A DNA stretch of 64,000 bases. Origin: Moraxellaceae bacterium (GTDB lineage Bacteria > Pseudomonadota > Gammaproteobacteria > Pseudomonadales > Moraxellaceae). The stretch lies in contig JAUXVU010000001.1 in NCBI GenBank assembly GCA_030680295.1, forward strand, positions 1-64,000, written 5' to 3'. Below, in pieces: positions 25,870 through 56,982 of the stretch; position 1 is the first letter of the stretch, and each line of letters starts with the position of its first letter. Position numbers and translations under genes: made by a program. The notes beneath the pieces were generated by a model. The model had not been told where the DNA came from, made no database searches, and saw nothing but the letters and a program-made list of their open reading frames with translations.

Positions 25870-25909
25870 GCCAGTTACTGTGGTCTCACTCGTAAATGAT
25901 GCTCAGGCC

Positions 25910-26920
25910 ATGACTATGCTGCGTAACTGCGCCATTTTTTTATGCTGCCTTTGTGTGTTTGGCAGCCCGTTAGCAAGTGCAGAGCCACTGATCACAGCGG
26001 ATCAATGTCAATCCATCGAAACAGGTCCGGGCCCAGAAAATCTGCTGCTCCTTAAAGACCGCCAGCAACTCCTTATTTCTAGCCACGATCGTCGACGATT
26101 TTCTCGCACAGGCGAAATCTATCGTTATGACTTAAATAGCAAAACCATGCAGGCTTTACCACGCGAAGGTGAGCCGGAATCTTTCCGCTTTCGCCCACAT
26201 GGAATGGATGCACAAAAGCGTAATGGCAATTGGTGGCTGTATGTCATTTCGCATGACAGCGAAGTATTCAGTGACCAACACAGCATCGCCGTTTATGAGC
26301 TAATTAATGACGTCCTTCACTTTCGTCGCCTGATGACCACACCATTAATGAGTGCGCCAAATGATTTAGTGCTAGGCGAAAACGGAGATATTTACGTCAC
26401 CATCGAACGTGCAAATGGTGGCAGCATTACTGAAATGATATTTCTGCAGCGCAAATCCAGCGTCATTCATTATCGAGCCGGCCGAGGCTGGCAAGTTGCC
26501 GCCAATGACCTATCGTTTGCCAACGGAATACTGCTAGACAATGACACTGCATATATCAGCCAAACGCTTGGAGAAGGCATTAATAAATACCAGATACTTT
26601 CCAATGGCCGCTTTCAATTTAAAGAAAAAATCACCAATTTGTCACTGCTAGATGCAATTACGCCAAGTCGCCCTGGGCACATCATGGCACCGGCCCATCC
26701 CTCTTTATTTCAATTGTTTTGGCATTGGCGTCGTGACAATCGCGCTTCGCCATCCATATTGTATGAAATCAATACCAGCACGGGCGATGCGACAAAATTA
26801 TTTGCCAATGATGGTTCAAAGATCAGCGCCGTATCACAAGCTATTTTAGTAAACGATACTTTATATATTGGCCAACTATTCGAGCCCTTCATTTTGGCCT
26901 GCCCTCGCCCCTTACAATGA
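25910..26920 (+). CDS. Exported SMP-30/arylesterase-like beta-propeller protein
   Basis: About 336 residues. From ATG 25910 the protein has a signal peptide (M-T-M-L-R-N then a hydrophobic stretch ending S-P-L-A-S-A), so it acts in the periplasm. The rest matches the SMP-30/paraoxonase beta-propeller type, with motifs such as H-G-M-D, S-A-P-N-D-L-V-L-G and F-A-N-G-I-L-L-D, where Asn and Asp typically bind calcium. Relatives hydrolyse lactones or esters. A longer GTG start at 25880 is possible but would spoil the signal peptide. The substrate is unknown. It lies just before the RND efflux operon. Confidence 0.7.
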   Translation: MTMLRNCAIFLCCLCVFGSPLASAEPLITADQCQSIETGPGPENLLLLKDRQQLLISSHDRRRFSRTGEIYRYDLNSKTMQALPREGEPESFRFRPHGMDAQKRNGNWWLYVISHDSEVFSDQHSIAVYELINDVLHFRRLMTTPLMSAPNDLVLGENGDIYVTIERANGGSITEMIFLQRKSSVIHYRAGRGWQVAANDLSFANGILLDNDTAYISQTLGEGINKYQILSNGRFQFKEKITNLSLLDAITPSRPGHIMAPAHPSLFQLFWHWRRDNRASPSILYEINTSTGDATKLFANDGSKISAVSQAILVNDTLYIGQLFEPFILACPRPLQ

Positions 26921-36451: not shown

Positions 36452-36470
36452 TTAAGCTGTGAGACTGACT

Positions 36471-37355
36471 ATGAACATTAAATCAATATTACTAACCACC
36501 GTGTTGGCGTTTGCAACACTCGGCATGACAGCCTGTGATGAGTCACGTGGCAATGACTTCCAAGGTGCTGCAGGTCAAGACGGCCAAGATGGTCAAGATG
36601 GTCAAGACGGAGAAGATGGCGATGACTTTGATCGCGATGTATTCTGCGCAGCAAACCCTGACAACATCATTTGTACTGACGACATTGATGAGTTCTGTGC
36701 CATCGATGCAAATAAAGACAAGTTTGTTTGTGATGATGACATACAAGAGTTTTGTGGCCGCGAAGAAAATGCTGAGAGACCAATTTGTGTTGGGATCCCA
36801 GGAGAGGACGGTGCTGACTTTGATATCGTGAAGTTCTGTGCAGATAATCCCGCAAATCCGATTTGCGATGACCGTGATGCGTTCTGTGCAGAGAACCCTA
36901 ACAACGTAATCTGTCAAGAAGTTGAAGAGCCAGAAACAGGTGGCTTGATCTTCAACGTACAAGAAACAACAGCAGGCCTGCTAAATGGAACGCCACTCGA
37001 AGTACTGAATGACGGCCTAAATACTTTAGTAGACCCACAAGATGGCGTTTTATCTCCTTTAACTGGCGCACTCGAGTCAGCTAGTGATGATGGCGGCCCA
37101 CTTGCTCCAGTAAGAGATGGTGTTAATACATTACTTGTACAGCCGGACTCATTACGTGTTGTGATCGATGCTTTGAATCAAATATTAAAAGTGTTGGATC
37201 CATCAGCCTTAGGTGGTGGTGTACCTGGATTACCTGATGCAGGTGGTGGTGCGCCCGCACTTCCTGGCCTAGATGCTCTACCAATTGATCAGGCATGTGC
37301 GATTCCTTTTCTTGGCCCACTGCTAGTTCAAGGAGCAGGCGGTAGCTGCGAATAA
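36471..37355 (+). CDS. Collagen-like, cysteine-repeat lipoprotein (novel)
   Basis: About 294 residues. From ATG 36471 it has a lipoprotein signal ending L-G-M-T-A-C. Then comes a short collagen-like tract (G-Q-D-G-Q-D-G-Q-D-G-E-D-G), then five repeats of the pattern acidic-x-F-C-x(7-10)-C with N-P-x-N between the cysteines in three of them, broken by a second short G-E-D-G-A-D stretch. The second half has no cysteines until the end: a helical region, a Gly/Pro/Leu-rich tract (G-G-G-V-P-G-L-P) and a final C-A-I-P to G-S-C-E pair. It is very acidic. I know no family with this layout. It follows the OmpA-family gene and ends at a strong terminator. A surface or periplasmic role with disulfides or metal binding is inference. 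Confidence 0.75.
   Translation: MNIKSILLTTVLAFATLGMTACDESRGNDFQGAAGQDGQDGQDGQDGEDGDDFDRDVFCAANPDNIICTDDIDEFCAIDANKDKFVCDDDIQEFCGREENAERPICVGIPGEDGADFDIVKFCADNPANPICDDRDAFCAENPNNVICQEVEEPETGGLIFNVQETTAGLLNGTPLEVLNDGLNTLVDPQDGVLSPLTGALESASDDGGPLAPVRDGVNTLLVQPDSLRVVIDALNQILKVLDPSALGGGVPGLPDAGGGAPALPGLDALPIDQACAIPFLGPLLVQGAGGSCE
36573..36617 (+). repeat. Five 9-bp tandem repeats coding for G-Q-D units
   Basis: Units of GGTCAAGAC/T with small variations encode the Gly-Gln-Asp collagen-like tract of the lipoprotein. Such an array can change length by slippage without breaking the frame. Confidence 0.75.
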
Positions 37356-48406: not shown

Positions 48407-48469
48407 CGCCAATTCAGCAGAATCTGCTAGGCTTCGCCACCGTGAACGCCTGTGCGAGACCTTAGCCCC

Positions 48470-49351
48470 ATGCACTATCAAGCACCCACCCAATCCATTG
48501 TGCGTGGTCTGGCCCTACTGACCCTGTCTGCCCTGCTCTTTTCTGCCATGGGTGTGCTTATTCGCCTGGCTTCACACAGCGTCAATAATGAAACCATCGT
48601 GTTCATGCGCAACCTGACTGGCACCATCATGCTGCTGCCTTTAATTGCCGTGCATGGTCTTGGATTGTTTAAAACCGCCGTACCGCTGCAACACCTGTGG
48701 CGAGCAGTCGTCGGCCTTGCCGCCATGTATGGTTTTTTCTATGCCATTGCCAATTTGCCGCTATCTAGTGCCATGGTGTTTACCTACTCATCACCCATCT
48801 TTATTCCATTGGTAGCTTGGCTGTTTTTACGTGAACGGATGACGCCACGCATGGGTATCGCCGCTGTAATGGGTTTAGTGGGCGTGATTATGGTGTGTCG
48901 ACCAGCCGCTACCGGCAGCCTCTTTATGGCTAGCATTGGGATTAGCGCCAGCTTGCTGGCCGCCATGGCCTTTGTCACCGTGCGCTCGTTATCACGCACA
49001 GAGCCCACCACGCGCATTGTGTTTTATTTCTCGCTGATATCTGCACTGATTTCAGCCATTCCCATGTTCTGGGCTTGGCGACCACTGACCAGTGAAGAAA
49101 CCTTATTAGTGGTTGGTGCTGGTGTATTAGCCACCTTTAGTCAGTTGGCCATGTCACGCGCTTATAGCTTAGCCCCTGCCGGAAAAATTGGCCCAGCAGC
49201 CTATCAGGCTATTGTATTTGCCGGTGTTTGGGCTTGGCTGATGTGGGGGGAAGTGCCAGACCGTTACGCGGTAGCTGGCACAATCATTATTTTTGTAGCG
49301 ACCCTTTTGTGTCTGGAACGACGCCATCGGCCTCGCCAAAATATCGGCTAA
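48470..49351 (+). CDS. DMT-superfamily (EamA) transporter
   Basis: About 293 residues with ten predicted transmembrane helices in two EamA repeats (about residues 10-140 and 150-285), each of five helices. The first repeat ends [17 protein letters not shown], a typical EamA signature. It probably exports or imports metabolites; the substrate is unknown. ATG 48470 or GTG 48452 are possible starts. It is divergent from rpsP, and its last 65 bp overlap the 3' end of the convergent glycosyltransferase gene. Confidence 0.88.
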
Positions 49352-50864
49352 CAAAGTCACAACGACAGCTCGGTAGCCAGTCGGGGAAGCGATAGTAGTT
49401 ATCACGAATCTCCGTTAAGACCGTGTCTTTATAGACTGCATAATCGAAGCCTTGACCCAGCAAGAAGTCAAACGTCTGGCCCTTATAGTCGACTTGAAAT
49501 AACTGATGCTCGGCAAACCATGGTGCAGCAGTTTCCACTTCACGTGGACGCTTCAAAAACAGCAAGACAGACTCACTATCTAGGTCACGGAAGTCGGTAA
49601 TAAAATCATCTTGGCGGGCATATTTAGAGCCAGTGCCCATCACCATGACGGGCTCACGAGCCAAGTACGCTAGCACTGACGAGGCGGTATAACCCTGAGT
49701 AGCCAAGGCTAACTGGTCCACATTTGCTGCTGTTAGCTCAGCAGCCTTGGCACGAGCGACCACTAAAATTTGGTCGCCTTCATAGGCCGCTAATATATCG
49801 CGCTGTAATTTAGGCTTGCTGCTCCAGACCGATAACGGCATGGCCACAATCAACAGCACAATCAGAACATGCGCCACACCATACCAACTGATCTGACGGG
49901 TAATTTGCTGCCAGCGGGTTAACGGCAGACGCCATAACAACAACAAACAAAACGGATGGAACCACAACACCCAATGCAGGCCGATATTTTTGCCTAGGCT
50001 GACCAGCAAAAAGCCTAAAAATGCCGTTGCCACCAATGTCGCTGCCAAACGCATAATGGGCGCAACGGTGACCTCATGGACTTGGCCACGAACCTGATAT
50101 AGCCCACGCAACACCGGCGGCAACAACACATAGGCCATCATCACCACATAACTGGCTAATGCCGCCCATTGCACACCCGTGCTGCCTTCATTGCGATTAA
50201 CTAAGTTAAATAGCAGGTTGCTCCAGCAATTCATCAGGTTCCAGTGCAGGTTTAACAAACCAAACGGGATGGCTGCCAACACCAGCACCACACCATGCCG
50301 CCAATACGCAGGTGCCACGGCAAAATAAAAAATCAGGTAACCAACGCCCAACAACACGGAGAAATATTTAGATAAAAAGGCAAGGCCAAGGCCCACACCG
50401 GCCAGTGCAGCCCATAACAAGCGGTTGGTTAACAGACCACGAGCAGCGGCCACAAACGACAGCGCCGCAAACAAAATGCAGCCGGTATCTGTCAGGGTAA
50501 ATACGTTGAGTAGACTCATCGGGCTGAGCAACAGCAGTAACGCCAGCCAGCGTGCCTTAACCGCATCAATAGGCTGCATCAGCTGATAAAACGCCCAAGC
50601 AATGATGAGCTCACTGAGCAGGCCCGGCATACGTAACCAGACACGATGATCACTGACTAATAACTGCAGCCACATCATCCAACCCGCCATGGGAGGATGG
50701 TCGTAGTAGCCATAATCGAGGTGACGACCCCACAGCACAAAATACGCTTCATCACCGGTCATGGGCAGCGCCCAAGCCAGCATCACCTTAACCAATAACA
50801 ACGTGGCCACAATAATAACCCAAGGTGCATTTAACCAACGTGTCATCGCTTGATTAAGCATCAT
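49287..50864 (-). CDS. GT39/ArnT-type polyprenyl-phosphate-sugar glycosyltransferase
   Basis: A 525-residue GT-C membrane enzyme. About ten hydrophobic helices are followed by a soluble C-terminal periplasmic domain (from about residue 360). The first periplasmic loop has the catalytic-site pattern T-G-D-E-A-Y-F and Y-Y-D-H-P-P-M, as in ArnT and PMT-type enzymes. Such proteins take a sugar from a polyprenyl phosphate carrier and transfer it to lipid, protein or glycan outside the cytoplasm. It is the last gene of the dprE operon, so the donor may be polyprenyl-phospho-arabinose. Its 3' end overlaps the EamA gene by 65 bp. Confidence 0.82.
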   Translation of the reverse strand: MMLNQAMTRWLNAPWVIIVATLLLVKVMLAWALPMTGDEAYFVLWGRHLDYGYYDHPPMAGWMMWLQLLVSDHRVWLRMPGLLSELIIAWAFYQLMQPIDAVKARWLALLLLLSPMSLLNVFTLTDTGCILFAALSFVAAARGLLTNRLLWAALAGVGLGLAFLSKYFSVLLGVGYLIFYFAVAPAYWRHGVVLVLAAIPFGLLNLHWNLMNCWSNLLFNLVNRNEGSTGVQWAALASYVVMMAYVLLPPVLRGLYQVRGQVHEVTVAPIMRLAATLVATAFLGFLLVSLGKNIGLHWVLWFHPFCLLLLWRLPLTRWQQITRQISWYGVAHVLIVLLIVAMPLSVWSSKPKLQRDILAAYEGDQILVVARAKAAELTAANVDQLALATQGYTASSVLAYLAREPVMVMGTGSKYARQDDFITDFRDLDSESVLLFLKRPREVETAAPWFAEHQLFQVDYKGQTFDFLLGQGFDYAVYKDTVLTEIRDNYYRFPDWLPSCRCDFVSRYFGEADGVVPDTKGSLQK

Positions 50865-50870
50865 TAATCC

Positions 50871-51812
50871 TTACAAATGTGAGTCACTGGCGGCCGGTGC
50901 TGGCGGCAAACTCAACACTGCAATCATGCCCAATGCCACGGCAAACCATAATGTTGCTAGACGAATAATGACCGTAGCCGCCACCGCCTCTGGCAGAGCC
51001 AAACCCTGCAACACCAACAAGCCTGTCATGGTCGCTTCGGTACCGCCTAGGCCACCGGGCAAAAAGCTGAGCGCACCCACCAGCATGGCAAAACCATAAA
51101 TAAATAGCGCCGCCTCAATACTGATCTCTGGCATCAGCGTGCGCAAAATAAGCCAAGCACCAATGCCTTCAGCCAACCATGCCACTAGGCTTAAGCCCTG
51201 TGACTGCCAAAGTAGGCGACCTTGCCATAACGGCCTGCTGCTTGATGCCACATCTGCCAGCCAGTTCACACTTTTGCGCTGGCCGGCAACTCGACGTAAT
51301 AGGTTTTCAGGAAAGCGAGTACGCAGCAGCAGAAGGCAGCACAACAACACACCCATCAGTAGCAAAAACGCCCATTCACCTTGTGGCAAATACGTCAGAC
51401 CCAATGCTGTCAAAATAACAATAGCCACCAAGTCCGCTAAACGTTCGCTAAAAAACATGGCCGCCGAGCGATGCCACACCACACCATAAGGACGCAGAAA
51501 TACACTGCGAATTAACTCACCGGCTTTACCCGGTGTGGTGGTCAACGCAAAACCAGCAAAGTAAATACGCTGATTGAGCACACGTGGCACGTTGTAATGC
51601 CAGCGTTGTAAAAACAAATGCCAACGCTCACCACGTAAGCCGTAATTAACCAGCGATAACAGCAAGGCCACCACAATGGGCCAGGCGCCAATTTGCTTAA
51701 CAGCGGCCCAAACTTCTTGCCAACCCGACCATAAGGCAAAGACTAAATAACCAGCGGCACTTAAAGCCACCGACAACCACAATAAACGCTGTCGGCGCGG
51801 ACCTAAGTTCAT
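50871..51812 (-). CDS. LPG synthase-type flippase-like membrane protein
   Basis: A 313-residue integral membrane protein of the lysylphosphatidylglycerol synthase transmembrane/UPF0104 family, with about eight helices. Family motifs G-L-R-G-E-R-W, T-T-T-P-G-K-A-G-E-L-I-R and F-L-P-G-G-L-G-G-T-E-A are clear. Such proteins are thought to move lipid-linked intermediates across the membrane. It overlaps the UbiA gene by 4 bp and lies 6 bp before the GT39 gene. A role in flipping the polyprenyl-phospho-pentose is inferred from context. Confidence 0.82.
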   Translation of the reverse strand: MNLGPRRQRLLWLSVALSAAGYLVFALWSGWQEVWAAVKQIGAWPIVVALLLSLVNYGLRGERWHLFLQRWHYNVPRVLNQRIYFAGFALTTTPGKAGELIRSVFLRPYGVVWHRSAAMFFSERLADLVAIVILTALGLTYLPQGEWAFLLLMGVLLCCLLLLRTRFPENLLRRVAGQRKSVNWLADVASSSRPLWQGRLLWQSQGLSLVAWLAEGIGAWLILRTLMPEISIEAALFIYGFAMLVGALSFLPGGLGGTEATMTGLLVLQGLALPEAVAATVIIRLATLWFAVALGMIAVLSLPPAPAASDSHL

Positions 51813-52672
51813 AAGGCCACCAGCGACAACACCGTGATTAACCAGCCCAGACCAGCTAACGCAATATGTGGGTCTCTAAACAAGTCACGTGAGGGGTCGC
51901 CACCACCGGATGAATCATGCAGCAGGAATAAATAACGAAAGCAGGCATACATCACAAATGGCACGGTGTAATACAGACGCTCGGTGCCATGAAACAACAT
52001 GATGTTTTCATCCATGGTGTAGAGGCTGTAGCTCAAAATCATGCCGGTACAGGTAATACCAATCAGCTTATCAAGCAGTGTCGGGCTGTAGTCATTCAGC
52101 ACAGCACGGTGCTCACCACCCTCTTCGGCCAGCGTAAAAATTTCAGCCCGGCGTTTGATAAAGCCCAAAAACAACGTAGTCCACAAACCACAAACCACCA
52201 GCCAATTCGATGGTGGAATCTCGATACCGTCTGTGCCGGCTAAAATGCGCAGCATAAAACCAGCGGAAATACAGAAGATATCCAAAATCACAATATGCTT
52301 AAGGCGTAGGGTATAGACCACATTCAGCAGCAAATAGGCCAGCACATAGGTCACCACCAGTGGGCTTGCCATACGAGCGATAATGAGCGCCGCCAGTGCT
52401 AAGCCTATTGTCAGCATCCAGCCTTGGTTGGGCGTAACCGCGCCCGAGGCTAATGGCCGACGACACTTAACCGGATGGAGCTGATCTTGCTCACGGTCAA
52501 ATAGGTCATTGAAGACATAAACACTACTGGACGCTAAACAGAATGCAATAACAGCAAGCAGCGCTGCTTGCACTAGGGCAGGCTCAGTCCAAGCATGACC
52601 AAACAGCAAACCGGTCAACACGAATCCATTCTTTACCCACTGATGTGGGCGCATTAATTTAATTAGCGACAC
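51809..52672 (-). CDS. UbiA-family phosphoribosyl-polyprenol synthase
   Basis: A 287-residue membrane prenyltransferase of the DPPR-synthase type (mycobacterial Rv3806c/UbiA), which joins PRPP to polyprenyl phosphate. It begins with the R-P-H-Q-W-V-K-N signature, followed by the Mg-binding N-D-L-F-D-R-E-Q-D motif (about residues 55-63) and a second D-I-F-C-I-S-A-G-F-M-L-R segment. About nine helices. The neighbouring dprE1, dprE2 and HAD genes point to this function rather than ubiquinone synthesis. It overlaps the flippase gene by 4 bp. Confidence 0.85.
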   Translation of the reverse strand: MSLIKLMRPHQWVKNGFVLTGLLFGHAWTEPALVQAALLAVIAFCLASSSVYVFNDLFDREQDQLHPVKCRRPLASGAVTPNQGWMLTIGLALAALIIARMASPLVVTYVLAYLLLNVVYTLRLKHIVILDIFCISAGFMLRILAGTDGIEIPPSNWLVVCGLWTTLFLGFIKRRAEIFTLAEEGGEHRAVLNDYSPTLLDKLIGITCTGMILSYSLYTMDENIMLFHGTERLYYTVPFVMYACFRYLFLLHDSSGGGDPSRDLFRDPHIALAGLGWLITVLSLVAL

Positions 52673-52691
52673 CGCGCCTCCTGCCTTTCAA

Positions 52692-53300
52692 TTAATGCCA
52701 AGGGCGAAAATGTGCCTGCTCGGCCAACGCCAACATTTCACGATCGCCACGGGTATCACCATAGGCCGCTAAAATTCGTTCAATTTTATAGTGTTCACGA
52801 AGCCGTACCGCCTTCTCCGGGCCATAACAATTTGGCGTGGCTAACTTGCCGGTATAACGACCGTTTGCATCCACCTCCAACTCGGTGGCCAAGACCGTAT
52901 CAAAGCCCATGTGATGCGCCCACGGCCTGAGATAAATCGCCAACGTAGCGCTCACCAATGCACACACATGGCCCTGCTTTAAATGACCATGCAAACGGGC
53001 AACGGCTTGCGGGCGCAGTGTGCGCGGAATGACATCGTGTGCAAATGCATCTGCCTTAGACTGAACTACTTGTGCTGACTGCCCCGCTAAAAAACAAGCC
53101 ACGACCTGCTCTTTAGCCTGTGCGTTACTGGTCATTTTCAACGCATATCGACACAACACAGGCAACGACTTCAGTGCACCCAAAACAAAACGCCAAGCTG
53201 GCGTAACAAACCATAAAAAGCGAAAAAATGACTCGCCATAGGTCAGCGTGCCATCAAAATCAAAGGCCACCACGCGTGGCTGCTTAACAATGACCGTCAC
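52692..53300 (-). CDS. HAD-superfamily phosphatase (candidate 5-phosphoribosyl-lipid phosphatase)
   Basis: About 202 residues of the HAD-IB type. Motif I is D-F-D-G-T, motif II S-A-T, motif III lysine in G-P-E-K-A and motif IV Y-G-D-T-R-G-D. The GTG start at 53300 overlaps the upstream stop by 4 bp (GTGA); a longer frame to 53363 is not favoured. Between the UbiA and dprE genes, it probably removes the 5-phosphate from polyprenyl-phosphoryl-5-phosphoribose. This is an inference; mycobacteria have a candidate from another family at this step. Confidence 0.78.
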   Translation of the reverse strand: MTVIVKQPRVVAFDFDGTLTYGESFFRFLWFVTPAWRFVLGALKSLPVLCRYALKMTSNAQAKEQVVACFLAGQSAQVVQSKADAFAHDVIPRTLRPQAVARLHGHLKQGHVCALVSATLAIYLRPWAHHMGFDTVLATELEVDANGRYTGKLATPNCYGPEKAVRLREHYKIERILAAYGDTRGDREMLALAEQAHFRPWH

Positions 53301-54031
53301 AATTTTAGCCTCTTGAAAATGAGCTCCGGCACATGGCGAATGATCAGCAGAATTAAACGCCAAAAGCCTGGTACATAAATTTCGTTACGGCCTTTACGTT
53401 GCGAATTCACAATCACCTCACCCACCTGCATGGGGTCGGCAACTAAGAACAAACCGGGCAAGCCAAAGGTCATACGGGTATCAACAAAGCCAGGCTTAAC
53501 CGTCATCACTGACACACCGGCATGAAACAGACGATTACGCAGTCCAGCCAAATAGGTCGCAAAACCTGCTTTCGCCGCACCGTAGGGGTAGTTGCTCTGA
53601 CGGCCGCGATCACCCGCTACCGAGGCAATGCCAACAATAAAGCCAAGCTCACGCTGCTCAAACACGTCAGCAAAGGCGTTTAACAAGGCAACTGGGCCGG
53701 TGTAGTTGCGCTGAATCACCTGGATTGCAACATCACCACGACGCATGCTCTCAGCTTCTGGCATCCAGCCAGCCGCCAATAACACACCATCCACCTGACC
53801 ATAGTTTGCTTCTAGGTTTGTTACCCAGGCTGGTCTATCGGCATTGTCATCAAGGTCTAACTCAATGACTTCGGCACGTGTTTGAAAGCGCACTTGAATA
53901 TCACTGGCCAGCCGCGCCAATTCATTTAAATCACGACCTGCTAATAATAAGCGGTGACCCTGTGCCGCCCACGCAAACGCAGCCCCTCTGGCCATTGCTG
54001 ATGTCGCACCCACAATCAAAATCTGCGTCAT
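53297..54031 (-). CDS. dprE2: DprE2-like short-chain dehydrogenase
   Basis: About 244 residues. The Rossmann motif G-A-T-S-A-M-A-R-G (about residues 8-16), D-L-D-D, and the Y-x-x-x-K catalytic pair in Y-P-Y-G-A-A-K with the preceding serine in G-I-A-S-V-A-G are intact. In arabinan pathways DprE2 reduces the 2'-keto intermediate made by DprE1, giving polyprenyl-phospho-arabinose. The start overlaps the dprE1 stop by 1 bp (TGATG). Operon context supports the name over a generic SDR. Confidence 0.85.
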   Translation of the reverse strand: MTQILIVGATSAMARGAAFAWAAQGHRLLLAGRDLNELARLASDIQVRFQTRAEVIELDLDDNADRPAWVTNLEANYGQVDGVLLAAGWMPEAESMRRGDVAIQVIQRNYTGPVALLNAFADVFEQRELGFIVGIASVAGDRGRQSNYPYGAAKAGFATYLAGLRNRLFHAGVSVMTVKPGFVDTRMTFGLPGLFLVADPMQVGEVIVNSQRKGRNEIYVPGFWRLILLIIRHVPELIFKRLKL

Positions 54032-55356
54032 CAACACATCTCCAAGCGTTGGCCTAAGGCCGACACATACAACCCATGTGGGTCTAACTGATGGCGAATG
54101 GACTGCCACTCGCCTAAGCGTGGATACATTTGCTGCAGCGTGCTAGCCGACATACGTGCATCTTTTGCCAAATACACCCGTCCACCATGCGCTAATACGA
54201 TAGTGTCCAAGGTATCCAGCAGGGTTAGCGTGCCCGCACGTAACGGAATATCTAAAGCTAGGGTAAAGCCGGGCATTGGGAAGGACAACATACCCTCACC
54301 CTCTGCACCAAAGCGTTTCAGCACCGCCAAGAAGCTGGCATTACCGCCCTCGCTAATGCGTGTTAATACTTCACGAATACCGACTTCCGCACTGTCTTCC
54401 GGCAATACAAACTGATACTGCACAAAGCCATTTTTGCCATACAACCGTGGCCAGTCGCGAATCCCATCTAAGGGATAAAAGAACGGTGCAATAGCCACCC
54501 GATGCGGCTCAGTTTTACGTGACTGCCAGCGGTAATAGAGCTTATTAAACGCGCGCACGCTGTGGCTGTTCAGACAAAAGCCGGGCAAGTTAACCGGCAT
54601 GCTTATCTTAGCCGGCCCCGGTGCTGGACCTAGCGCACCATCAATATGATGACCACGAATGAGCACCGAACGGCCAAGCGACTCACCTTGCGCTAAACAA
54701 TCAATCCACGCCACGGTGTACTCATCGTCCTGCGCTGGATCACGCATCAGCGCCATAATTTCGCTTAAATTTTCTGCCGGCACATGACTCACTGACATAT
54801 CAGCCGAGTGAATAGGCTTGAGCTGCAACTCGACTTCACCAATCAGGCCGGTCATGCCCATGCCACCAACAGTGGCCCAAAAACAGGCAGCGTTTTCTTC
54901 AGCAGAGCAACGCACTGGGCCATGAACAGTAAACAACACAAGGTTTTTTACAAACGCACTAAAGCTGCCAACATGATGATGATTTTTACCATGCACATCA
55001 CTGGCAATCGCCCCGCCAAGGGTGACGAAGCGTGTGCCAGGAGTAACGGGCAAAAACCAGCCCTGAGGCATGACAACACGCAAAACATCATCGAGACTTA
55101 CCCCGGCTTCTGCGCAGAGAACACCGGTTACTGGATCAAAGCTCAGAAAACGATTTAAACGTGTCGTCAGTAACGTATGGCCTTGCAAGCTAATGGCAGC
55201 ATCACCATAAGCACGACCTAAACCGCGTGCCAAACAAGGTCTATGAGCCCATTCAGCTAGTTCGGCATAACGCTCAACTCGCGCCAATCTGGCATCTACC
55301 AAGGGATAGTTACCCCAACCCGCGAGCCTTTTTTCAACAAATGCAATATCAGTCAT
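54031..55356 (-). CDS. dprE1: DprE1-like FAD-linked oxidase (ribose-2'-epimerase subunit)
   Basis: A 441-residue flavoprotein of the VAO/FAD-binding_4 family. Key segments match mycobacterial DprE1: G-L-G-R-A-Y-G-D (residues 45-52), P-G-T-R-F-V-T-L-G-G-A-I-A-S-D-V-H-G-K-N-H-H (106-127) and Y-L-A-K-D-A (395-400) with the catalytic-type lysine K398. It would oxidise polyprenyl-phospho-ribose at C2'. The position equal to the benzothiazinone-reactive cysteine is Ala367 (L-A-L-D). It begins 2 bp after the ffh stop, so the operon may be read from the ffh promoter. Confidence 0.88.
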   Translation of the reverse strand: MTDIAFVEKRLAGWGNYPLVDARLARVERYAELAEWAHRPCLARGLGRAYGDAAISLQGHTLLTTRLNRFLSFDPVTGVLCAEAGVSLDDVLRVVMPQGWFLPVTPGTRFVTLGGAIASDVHGKNHHHVGSFSAFVKNLVLFTVHGPVRCSAEENAACFWATVGGMGMTGLIGEVELQLKPIHSADMSVSHVPAENLSEIMALMRDPAQDDEYTVAWIDCLAQGESLGRSVLIRGHHIDGALGPAPGPAKISMPVNLPGFCLNSHSVRAFNKLYYRWQSRKTEPHRVAIAPFFYPLDGIRDWPRLYGKNGFVQYQFVLPEDSAEVGIREVLTRISEGGNASFLAVLKRFGAEGEGMLSFPMPGFTLALDIPLRAGTLTLLDTLDTIVLAHGGRVYLAKDARMSASTLQQMYPRLGEWQSIRHQLDPHGLYVSALGQRLEMC

Positions 55357-55358
55357 TA

Positions 55359-56858
55359 TTAGCGCTTCTTAAAGCCGGGAGGGAGCACACCCGGTAAGCC
55401 TGGAAAGCCCCCAGGACCACCTAAACCAGGCAGACCGCCTGGCATTGACGGTGCACTTTTACCACCGCCTGCTGCCTTGCCCATACCCGGCATGTCGTCG
55501 AGCATACCCGGCGGCAGTTTGCCCTGCATACCACGCATCATTTTCATCATGCCGCTGGGGCTGGAAAACTTCTTCATCATTTTGGCCATCTGGCCATGTT
55601 GCTTCAGTACTCGATTAACATCTTGAATTGTCGAGCCCGAGCCATTAGCAATACGGCGTTTGCGCGAGCCATTTATCAAGTCCGGCTTCTGTCGTTCTGC
55701 GGGTGTCATGGACTGAATAATAGCTTCCATACGCTTCATTTGTTTTTCGGGCGCGCCACCCGCCATTGCCTGCTGAATTGACGCGGCATTCATGCCAGGC
55801 AACTTATCTAACAAACCACCCATGCCACCTAAGTTACGCATTTGCTGGAACTGCTCCAGCATGTCTTGCAGGTCAAAGCCTTTACCTTTCTGTAGCTTCT
55901 TGGCTAACTTTTCGGCCTTGTCTTTATCAATCTTGCGCTCGACCTCTTCCACCAAGGACAGCACATCACCCATGCCTAAAATGCGTTGAGCAATACGGTC
56001 TGGATGGAATAGTTCAAGCGCGTCAGTTTTTTCACCAACACCAATAAACTTAATTGGTTTGCCGGTAATAGTACGTACCGACAAAGCCGCACCACCACGA
56101 GCATCACCGTCAGCTTTAGCCAGCACAACACCCGTTAATGGCAGCGCATCATTAAATGCTTTGGCGGTATTGGCGGCATCTTGGCCGGTCATGGCATCAA
56201 CCACAAACAGCGTTTCAATCGGCTTAATCGCCGCATGCACACGCTGAATTTCCGCCATCATGTCTTCATCAATCGCCAAACGACCCGCGGTATCGATAAT
56301 GACCACATCGGCAAATTTGAGCTTGCCTTCAGCAATAGCATTGCGCGCAATATTGACCGGATCCTGACCAATGTCTGATGGAAAAAACAGCACATCAATA
56401 TCGCGTGCTAGCGTTTCCAGCTGCTTGATCGCGGCAGGTCGATAGATATCGGCCGAGGCCACTAACACCGTTTTCTTTTGTTCTTTTAAATAACGCGCCA
56501 GCTTACCCACCGTGGTGGTTTTACCTGCACCCTGCAAACCGGCCATCAAAATCACCGCAGGCGGTGTTGTGGCTAAATTCAGTCCTTCGTTTTGTGTACC
56601 TAAAGTGCGCACTAATTCTTCGTGCACTAATTTTACAAACGCTTGACCCGGCTGCAGCTGTGTTAAAAAGTCTTGGCCTAATGCCTGCCCTTTAATGCGC
56701 TCAATAAACTCTTTAACCACCGACAGAGCAACGTCGGCTTCCAGTAACGCCATCCGAACTTCACGCAGGGTGTCTTTAATATTGTCTTCGTTGAGCCGAC
56801 TGCCACCGGTAATGGCTCTTAGGCTGGCACCTAATCGATCACTTAAATTATCAAACAT
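55359..56858 (-). CDS. ffh: Signal recognition particle protein Ffh
   Basis: About 499 residues. It has an N-domain helical bundle, a G-domain with A-G-L-Q-G-A-G-K-T-T-T (about residues 100-110), D-T-A-G-R-L and T-K-A-D-like A-K-A-D, and a methionine-rich M-domain with a Gly/Pro/Met-rich tail. It binds signal peptides and 4.5S RNA and targets membrane proteins to FtsY. Start 56858 (M-F-D-N-L-S) has GGAAGAG upstream. The tail is longer than in E. coli. Confidence 0.96.
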   Translation of the reverse strand: MFDNLSDRLGASLRAITGGSRLNEDNIKDTLREVRMALLEADVALSVVKEFIERIKGQALGQDFLTQLQPGQAFVKLVHEELVRTLGTQNEGLNLATTPPAVILMAGLQGAGKTTTVGKLARYLKEQKKTVLVASADIYRPAAIKQLETLARDIDVLFFPSDIGQDPVNIARNAIAEGKLKFADVVIIDTAGRLAIDEDMMAEIQRVHAAIKPIETLFVVDAMTGQDAANTAKAFNDALPLTGVVLAKADGDARGGAALSVRTITGKPIKFIGVGEKTDALELFHPDRIAQRILGMGDVLSLVEEVERKIDKDKAEKLAKKLQKGKGFDLQDMLEQFQQMRNLGGMGGLLDKLPGMNAASIQQAMAGGAPEKQMKRMEAIIQSMTPAERQKPDLINGSRKRRIANGSGSTIQDVNRVLKQHGQMAKMMKKFSSPSGMMKMMRGMQGKLPPGMLDDMPGMGKAAGGGKSAPSMPGGLPGLGGPGGFPGLPGVLPPGFKKR

Positions 56859-56982
56859 CGCTCTCTTCCATCTCATCATCGGCGGGTACAATGCCACCAT
56901 TATAGGCATGCCAACCGCCTAGCGCACGAGCACTTGTCTATGCCAAACTCAGGATCCTGTCTTTGATCACTGTTATGACTGT

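Follow-up and report, generated by a model that had tools for sequence, protein, structure and literature searches.

How much of a D-arabinofuranose pathway can a bacterium encode at a single locus? The question is raised by six adjoining genes in a 64,000-nucleotide stretch from a member of the Moraxellaceae (order Pseudomonadales; GenBank assembly GCA_030680295.1, contig JAUXVU010000001.1, positions 1 to 64,000), which we refer to as the window. Judging by the homologies of the encoded proteins, we think it very probable that these six genes specify a polyprenyl-phosphate D-arabinofuranose pathway, from phosphoribosyl pyrophosphate (PRPP) to transfer in the periplasm. We also lean, with less confidence, towards the view that the LPG_synthase_TM (PF03706) proteins of this group flip polyprenyl-phosphate pentofuranose donors and form a flippase class not assigned before, which replaces GtrA-type transporters in the same clusters, and that the window holds a compact and complete operon for synthesis, flipping and transfer.

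The proposed route has five steps. A UbiA-type enzyme would join PRPP and polyprenyl phosphate to give polyprenyl-phosphate ribose 5-phosphate, which is the presumed substrate of a HAD phosphatase that would take off the 5′-phosphate. A DprE1-like protein would then oxidise C2 of the polyprenyl-phosphate ribofuranose and a DprE2-like protein would reduce the keto intermediate, leaving C2 inverted and giving polyprenyl-phosphate D-arabinofuranose. The LPG_synthase_TM protein would carry this lipid to the outer face of the inner membrane, and a GT-C glycosyltransferase with the ArnT fold would hand the arabinofuranose to a periplasmic acceptor. The first three steps are predicted from homology to characterised enzymes. 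We infer the last two from protein folds and the conserved gene neighbourhood and, for flipping, also from an apparent exchange with GtrA. A preliminary description of the locus had proposed that synthesis through transfer could be encoded here; this is supported, in that each stage has homologues showing the domains, folds and catalytic residues one would expect, and the block is conserved as a unit. Its domain assignments for the six proteins also hold in Pfam and NCBIfam, apart from a GT39 label for the transferase.

The UbiA-like protein has the NDxxDxxxD motif, scores 277 bits against the decaprenyl-phosphate phosphoribosyltransferase model NF008977 (cut-off 234) and matches a solved enzyme of this type (8j8j) with an E-value of 1e-33, as predicted for a UbiA-family PRPP:polyprenyl-phosphate phosphoribosyltransferase. 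The phosphatase exceeds the cut-off of the HAD-IB model TIGR01490 (145 bits, cut-off 98), and the motifs DFDGTLT and GDTRGD can be read in its sequence. Homologues of both epimerase components are present. The DprE1-like protein aligns over its full length with DprE1 of Mycobacterium smegmatis (4aut, E 5.8e-87). The best PDB chain for the DprE2-like protein is a DprE2 (21gq_C, E 7e-28); this protein also scores above the cut-off of PRK07102 (284 bits) and carries a YxxxK motif. Residues His122 and Lys398 of the DprE1-like protein are invariant in 89 of 89 aligned sequences, at the positions of His132 and Lys418 of the Mycobacterium tuberculosis enzyme, which we take to be catalytic. A separate observation from the same alignment concerns the position of M. 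tuberculosis Cys387, the covalent target of benzothiazinones, which is an alanine in all 89 sequences, the window protein included.

The scores against the two curated equivalog models are lower: 433 bits against NF053785, under its cut-off of 500, for the DprE1-like protein, and 161 bits against the DprE2 model NF053786, under its cut-off of 250, for its partner. Both are therefore named as DprE-like. Is the product then arabinose or ribose? The preliminary description allowed either; since DprE1-like and DprE2-like proteins are both present, arabinose is favoured. The alternative, that the product is some other pentofuranose, altered at C2 or unaltered (e.g. ribofuranose), and that the glycosyltransferase uses polyprenyl-phosphate ribose directly, could draw on the scores just mentioned and on a Citrobacter GT-C enzyme that takes ribofuranose and xylofuranose donors alike (PMC11127046). 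We regard it as very improbable, given that the genus has both dprE-like genes without exception (seven of seven genomes) and related clusters have them almost always, that the catalytic residues of DprE1 are invariant, and that DprE1 and DprE2 homologues are reported in candidate systems of arabinofuranose-containing glycans (PMC11127046).

A route from PRPP through polyprenyl-phosphate ribose, epimerisation and flipping to transfer by a GT-C enzyme has been established or proposed in Citrobacter, mycobacteria and Pseudomonas paraeruginosa (PMC11127046, PMC12369383). The mycobacterial pathway logic invoked for this locus is supported, but the route had already been described outside mycobacteria. 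Biochemical precedent comes from the three-component systems of Citrobacter youngae O1 and O2 (Kelly et al. 2024, PMC11127046), which like the window combine a UbiA-type phosphoribosyltransferase, a HAD phosphoribose phosphatase, an epimerase (in O2), a flippase and a GT-C enzyme, with the lipid-linked donor used in the periplasm. The components differ in kind. HAD and UbiA are fused in C. youngae, whereas the window has separate HAD-IB and UbiA genes for its predicted polyprenyl phosphoribose synthase; in many related clusters the UbiA protein is extended at its N terminus, as it is in the HAD-UbiA fusion family PRK08238. Xylofuranose is the product of the O2 epimerase, whereas the window has the DprE1/DprE2-like pair; the C. 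youngae transferase founds family GT136, whereas the GT-C gene of the window cluster encodes a PMT_2 domain with an ArnT/Pmt/Emb-like fold. Finally, the C. youngae flippase is a small EmrE-like ‘MATE’ protein, in place of which the window has a PF03706 protein with the fold of the MprF flippase domain.

Mycobacteria (Rv3806c, Rv3807c, DprE1 Rv3790, DprE2 Rv3791, Rv3789 and Emb/Aft) share homologous UbiA, DprE1 and DprE2 proteins with the window and also have GT-C transferases that use the lipid donor, but their phosphatase and flippase belong to other families. The differences from mycobacteria noted previously, a HAD-type phosphatase and a flippase and glycosyltransferase in the same operon, are confirmed by domains and gene order. 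In P. paraeruginosa (PA7/Pa5196) the genes PSPA7_6245-6251 likewise include a UbiA-type enzyme for D-arabinofuranose biosynthesis in a Gram-negative bacterium, but the transferase TfpW lies with pilA, outside the biosynthetic cluster, and not inside the operon as in the window. Harvey et al. in 2011 are said to have found DprE1 and DprE2 homologues among these genes as well. Arabinose-precursor genes resembling the mycobacterial ones are also known outside actinobacteria in Azorhizobium, where noeCHOP serve Nod factor arabinosylation (PMC2443382) and the target, unlike here, is a secreted signal lipid. The three-component pentofuranose systems and the pilin-arabinose genes of P. paraeruginosa are of the same kind as the window system, which is best read as a variant of them with the flippase family as the new element.

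The other six genomes of the genus have the six genes in the same order and at the same site, with ffh on one flank and eamA/rpsP on the other (52-78% protein identity), so the block is not a chance arrangement. One of these loci (G006) is cut off by the contig end within the flippase gene, and the glycosyltransferase falls outside view. Throughout the genus ffh lies directly before dprE1, whereas sister genera lack the six-gene block: there eamA comes after ffh, and then rpsP at loci that extend far enough. The block thus behaves as one inserted and retained unit, which the ancestor of the genus most likely acquired or assembled at the ffh site and which was then kept. Two species of the genus carry additional sequence. 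One (L059, 11087-12250) has a gene for a 387-aa protein with multiple membrane spans between HAD and UbiA, which may be an extra transferase or polymerase. Another (L058, 2752-4185) has about 1.5 kb between eamA and the glycosyltransferase gene, with frames that are unmatched to window genes, one of them encoding a 261-aa hydrophobic protein.

Which protein flips the lipid? The LPG_synthase_TM protein matches PF03706 with 162 bits; Pfam finds no other domain in it, and no synthase domain. It is the sole PF03706 protein of the genome. Its AlphaFold model (predicted local distance difference test score, pLDDT, 85.7) has the fold of the MprF flippase domain (Z-score 21.1 over 259 residues, root-mean-square deviation, rmsd, 3.8); six MprF structures score between 19 and 21 and the next unrelated row reaches 5.9. 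Sequence searches of the PDB with alignments of the family gave no match, and the matches came from the fold comparison alone. The main text of PMC11127046, as far as we could see, does not mention flippases of the lysylphosphatidylglycerol-synthase type.

The second line of evidence comes from related clusters. We sampled 294 genomes across the order, of which 58 encode a DprE1 relative, and read the clusters at 68 loci of the order plus 20 from other groups. Of the 68 clusters of the order, 41 have an LPG_synthase_TM gene no more than 8 kb from DprE1. Within this distance LPG_synthase_TM occurs without GtrA in 39 clusters, GtrA without LPG_synthase_TM in 20, both in 2 and neither in 7. The exclusion in these raw counts has a Fisher p of 1.8e-9, a value that is inflated by near relatives and was obtained with an LPG profile built from cluster-linked members; with strict Pfam matches for GtrA the four counts are 39, 17, 2 and 10 (p 2e-7). 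Genomes with a cluster-linked LPG_synthase_TM gene mostly have GtrA elsewhere, and in the cluster only at L085 and L117. This suggests that LPG_synthase_TM and GtrA, the family of the mycobacterial/Gtr type, substitute for each other in DprE1 clusters. Together, the modelled fold and the exchange with GtrA support, but do not prove, a flippase role for the LPG_synthase_TM protein.

Besides the DprE scores, several points weigh against the proposed pathway. The LPG/GtrA label changes just six or seven times on the UbiA tree, and a tree-aware test of the pair found about three supported independent pairs, consistent in direction and not significant. Some clusters carry both flippase families (2 of 68) or neither (7 of 68). 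The donor specificity of the GT-C protein, further, is not independently anchored, because its close relatives occur only in the genus and in Thiomicrorhabdus.

It is also possible that polyprenyl-phosphate arabinofuranose is made, but that the LPG_synthase_TM protein acts in lipid binding or phospholipid modification and the donor is flipped by EamA or by a GtrA protein encoded elsewhere. EamA-type proteins include known flippases for 4-amino-4-deoxy-L-arabinose lipids, GtrA-family matches exist elsewhere in the genome (C36:273395), and LPG_synthase_TM domains are also found in the phospholipid-modifying MprF. That said, the window protein has only the MprF flippase-domain fold and no synthase domain, and in sister genera, where the block is absent, eamA still lies at this site between ffh and rpsP, which places it outside the unit; eamA was rejected as a member for this reason. 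Furthermore, four of the seven genus members gave no GtrA match, and related clusters have a linked GtrA gene mainly where a linked LPG_synthase_TM gene is missing. We find this alternative doubtful and retain the LPG_synthase_TM protein as the candidate flippase.

Linkage of the core genes is also seen elsewhere in the order and in Bacteroidota, Bacillota and Chloroflexota. On the UbiA tree, with support given by the Shimodaira–Hasegawa approximate likelihood-ratio test (SH-aLRT), three main types of cluster can be told apart. In the first, UbiA has an N-terminal extension and is labelled as the HAD-UbiA fusion type (SH-aLRT 100), on the basis of the position of the UbiA match (residues ~190 onward) and of PRK08238. 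The second, seen in Thiomicrorhabdus and Pseudomonas indica, combines a stand-alone UbiA with a DUF212/PAP2-type protein and GtrA (SH-aLRT 99). The third combines a stand-alone UbiA with a separate HAD and LPG_synthase_TM (SH-aLRT 94); besides the window genus it includes three clusters from other families (L094, L098 and L101), in which the genes are ordered differently. Clusters from Bacteroidota make up another group, also with a separate HAD. By BLAST the window HAD protein had no match to the N-terminal parts of the fusion-type UbiA proteins. These patterns make the phosphatase and the flippase appear as exchangeable modules around a UbiA-DprE1-DprE2 core.

The preliminary description had held that the pathway would be in doubt if HAD or glycosyltransferase genes were absent from homologous clusters elsewhere. 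Such absences are found in many clusters, but they do not refute the pathway, because likely functional equivalents (the DUF212/PAP2-type phosphatase, other membrane proteins) take their place. P. indica (L038), for example, has a DUF212/PAP2-type protein and GtrA where the window has HAD and LPG_synthase_TM. In L042, L043 and L038, clusters without HAD or LPG_synthase_TM, GtrA lies directly upstream of DprE1 and DUF212 (divergent PAP2) lies beside UbiA, a layout confirmed by Pfam in L042 and L038 and by profiles built in this analysis in L043. In two HAD-UbiA-fusion clusters (L064:4776-6851 and L089:4859-6895) a gene directly upstream of LPG_synthase_TM was considered as the transferase and rejected; it encodes a TgpA-like transglutaminase, not a glycosyltransferase. 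One locus (L100, G208 contig 25) carries a second DprE1-like gene, with neither UbiA nor DprE2 close by; the same genome has a full LPG-type cluster at L106.

The GT-C protein matches PF13231 (PMT_2) with 57 bits (cut-off 26), and its motifs GDEAYF and YDHPP are invariant among its relatives. Its model (pLDDT 82) is closest to ArnT (5f15, Z-score 27.4 over 422 residues, rmsd 4.1), which binds undecaprenyl phosphate in that structure. Pmt4 follows at 25.1, then oligosaccharyltransferases at 16-21 and the Emb/Aft arabinosyltransferases at 14-16. As with the flippase candidate, a sequence search of the PDB gave no match and fold comparison alone gave matches. A GT-C transferase of the PMT_2 type thus stands, but the GT39 family is not established: Pfam gives PMT_2 only, and the closest solved fold is ArnT (GT83), ahead of Pmt4. 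The modelled fold that these enzymes share fixes neither donor nor acceptor. The genome encodes no other PMT_2 protein, and clear relatives of the GT-C protein are confined to the genus and to the DprE1 clusters of Thiomicrorhabdus (32% and 30% identity); one further weak match across the order (G259) comes from a genome in which DprE1 had no match.

What, then, is the acceptor? Sequence still does not indicate it, as had been said before. If the pathway is as proposed, the acceptor could be lipopolysaccharide (LPS; lipid A, core or O antigen) or another envelope polysaccharide, which we regard as about an even prospect. ArnT, the closest fold, is a lipid A pentosyltransferase, and characterised three-component systems decorate O antigens (PMC11127046); on the other hand, an acceptor cannot be read from similarity of fold, the adjoining genes include none for LPS and the genome has only one weak Wzy_C match. 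Type IV pilin, as in P. paraeruginosa, we consider improbable. Homologous biosynthetic genes do serve pilin arabinosylation in that species (PMC12369383) and, with gene names read from the sequences, pilA adjoins pilB, pilC and pilD in the window genome. However, we found no glycosyltransferase gene beside pilA, whereas the P. paraeruginosa pilin cassette encodes TfpW; the pilin is unmatched by PF00114, and the operon carries a transferase of its own with the predicted ArnT fold. By inference, LPS or another envelope glycan is somewhat more likely than pilin.

The layout of the block is summarised in Table 1.

Table 1. Genes of the six-gene block and its immediate neighbours (positions in the window).
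Gene	Position	Strand	Product or remark
DprE1-like	54031..55356	-	FAD oxidase, 441 aa
DprE2-like	53297..54031	-	SDR reductase, 244 aa
HAD-IB phosphatase	52692..53300	-	202 aa
UbiA-family	51809..52672	-	predicted PRPP-dependent polyprenyl-phosphate phosphoribosyltransferase, 287 aa
LPG_synthase_TM	50871..51812	-	proposed flippase, 313 aa
GT-C glycosyltransferase	49287..50864	-	PMT_2, 525 aa; proposed periplasmic arabinofuranosyltransferase
ffh (SRP54)	55359..56909	-	Pfam SRP54; directly upstream of dprE1-like gene
eamA	48452..49351		convergent to GT-C gene

The six genes span 6.1 kb. In order of transcription the junctions are a 1-bp overlap (TGATG), a 4-bp overlap (GTGA), a 19-bp gap, a 4-bp overlap (ATGA) and a 6-bp gap; the six minus-strand genes, overlaps and gaps first reported for this compact operon are exact to the base. 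What had been overlooked is its attachment to the ffh transcription unit: the dprE1-like gene starts 2 nt behind the ffh stop (55359), so the six genes probably share the ffh transcript. Promoter-like matches in the region, sought for a promoter of the dprE1-like gene's own, were not above those in shuffled sequences. Terminator-like matches numbered 20 against 12.0 (standard deviation 3.1) in shuffles, most of them within coding sequence. At its 3′ end the GT-C gene overlaps eamA by 65 nt. We are confident, short of certainty, that the six genes behind ffh form one translation-coupled unit for making, exporting and using an activated D-arabinofuranose lipid. Composition gave no signal of recent foreign DNA: the GC content of the six genes (0.49-0.52) is like that of the remainder of the window.

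Two plus-strand frames elsewhere in the window have no Pfam match at 1e-5: one of 346 aa (25880-26920) before an HlyD/AcrB-type efflux pair, and one of 298 aa (36459-37355) beside an OmpA-family gene.

With every step on 6.1 kb, the operon would be convenient for rebuilding arabinofuranosylation in a laboratory strain. The Gram-negative relatives of DprE1 carry alanine where benzothiazinones attack the M. tuberculosis cysteine. Direct evidence for a flippase is lacking in pentofuranose-lipid pathways (cf. Kelly et al.), and the LPG_synthase_TM protein offers a second candidate that is structurally tractable through its predicted MprF fold. Furthermore, its apparent exchange with GtrA amounts to a natural swap experiment. 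Finally, D-arabinofuranose addition is familiar above all from mycobacteria; the operon described here is further evidence that it may be common among Gram-negative bacteria too.

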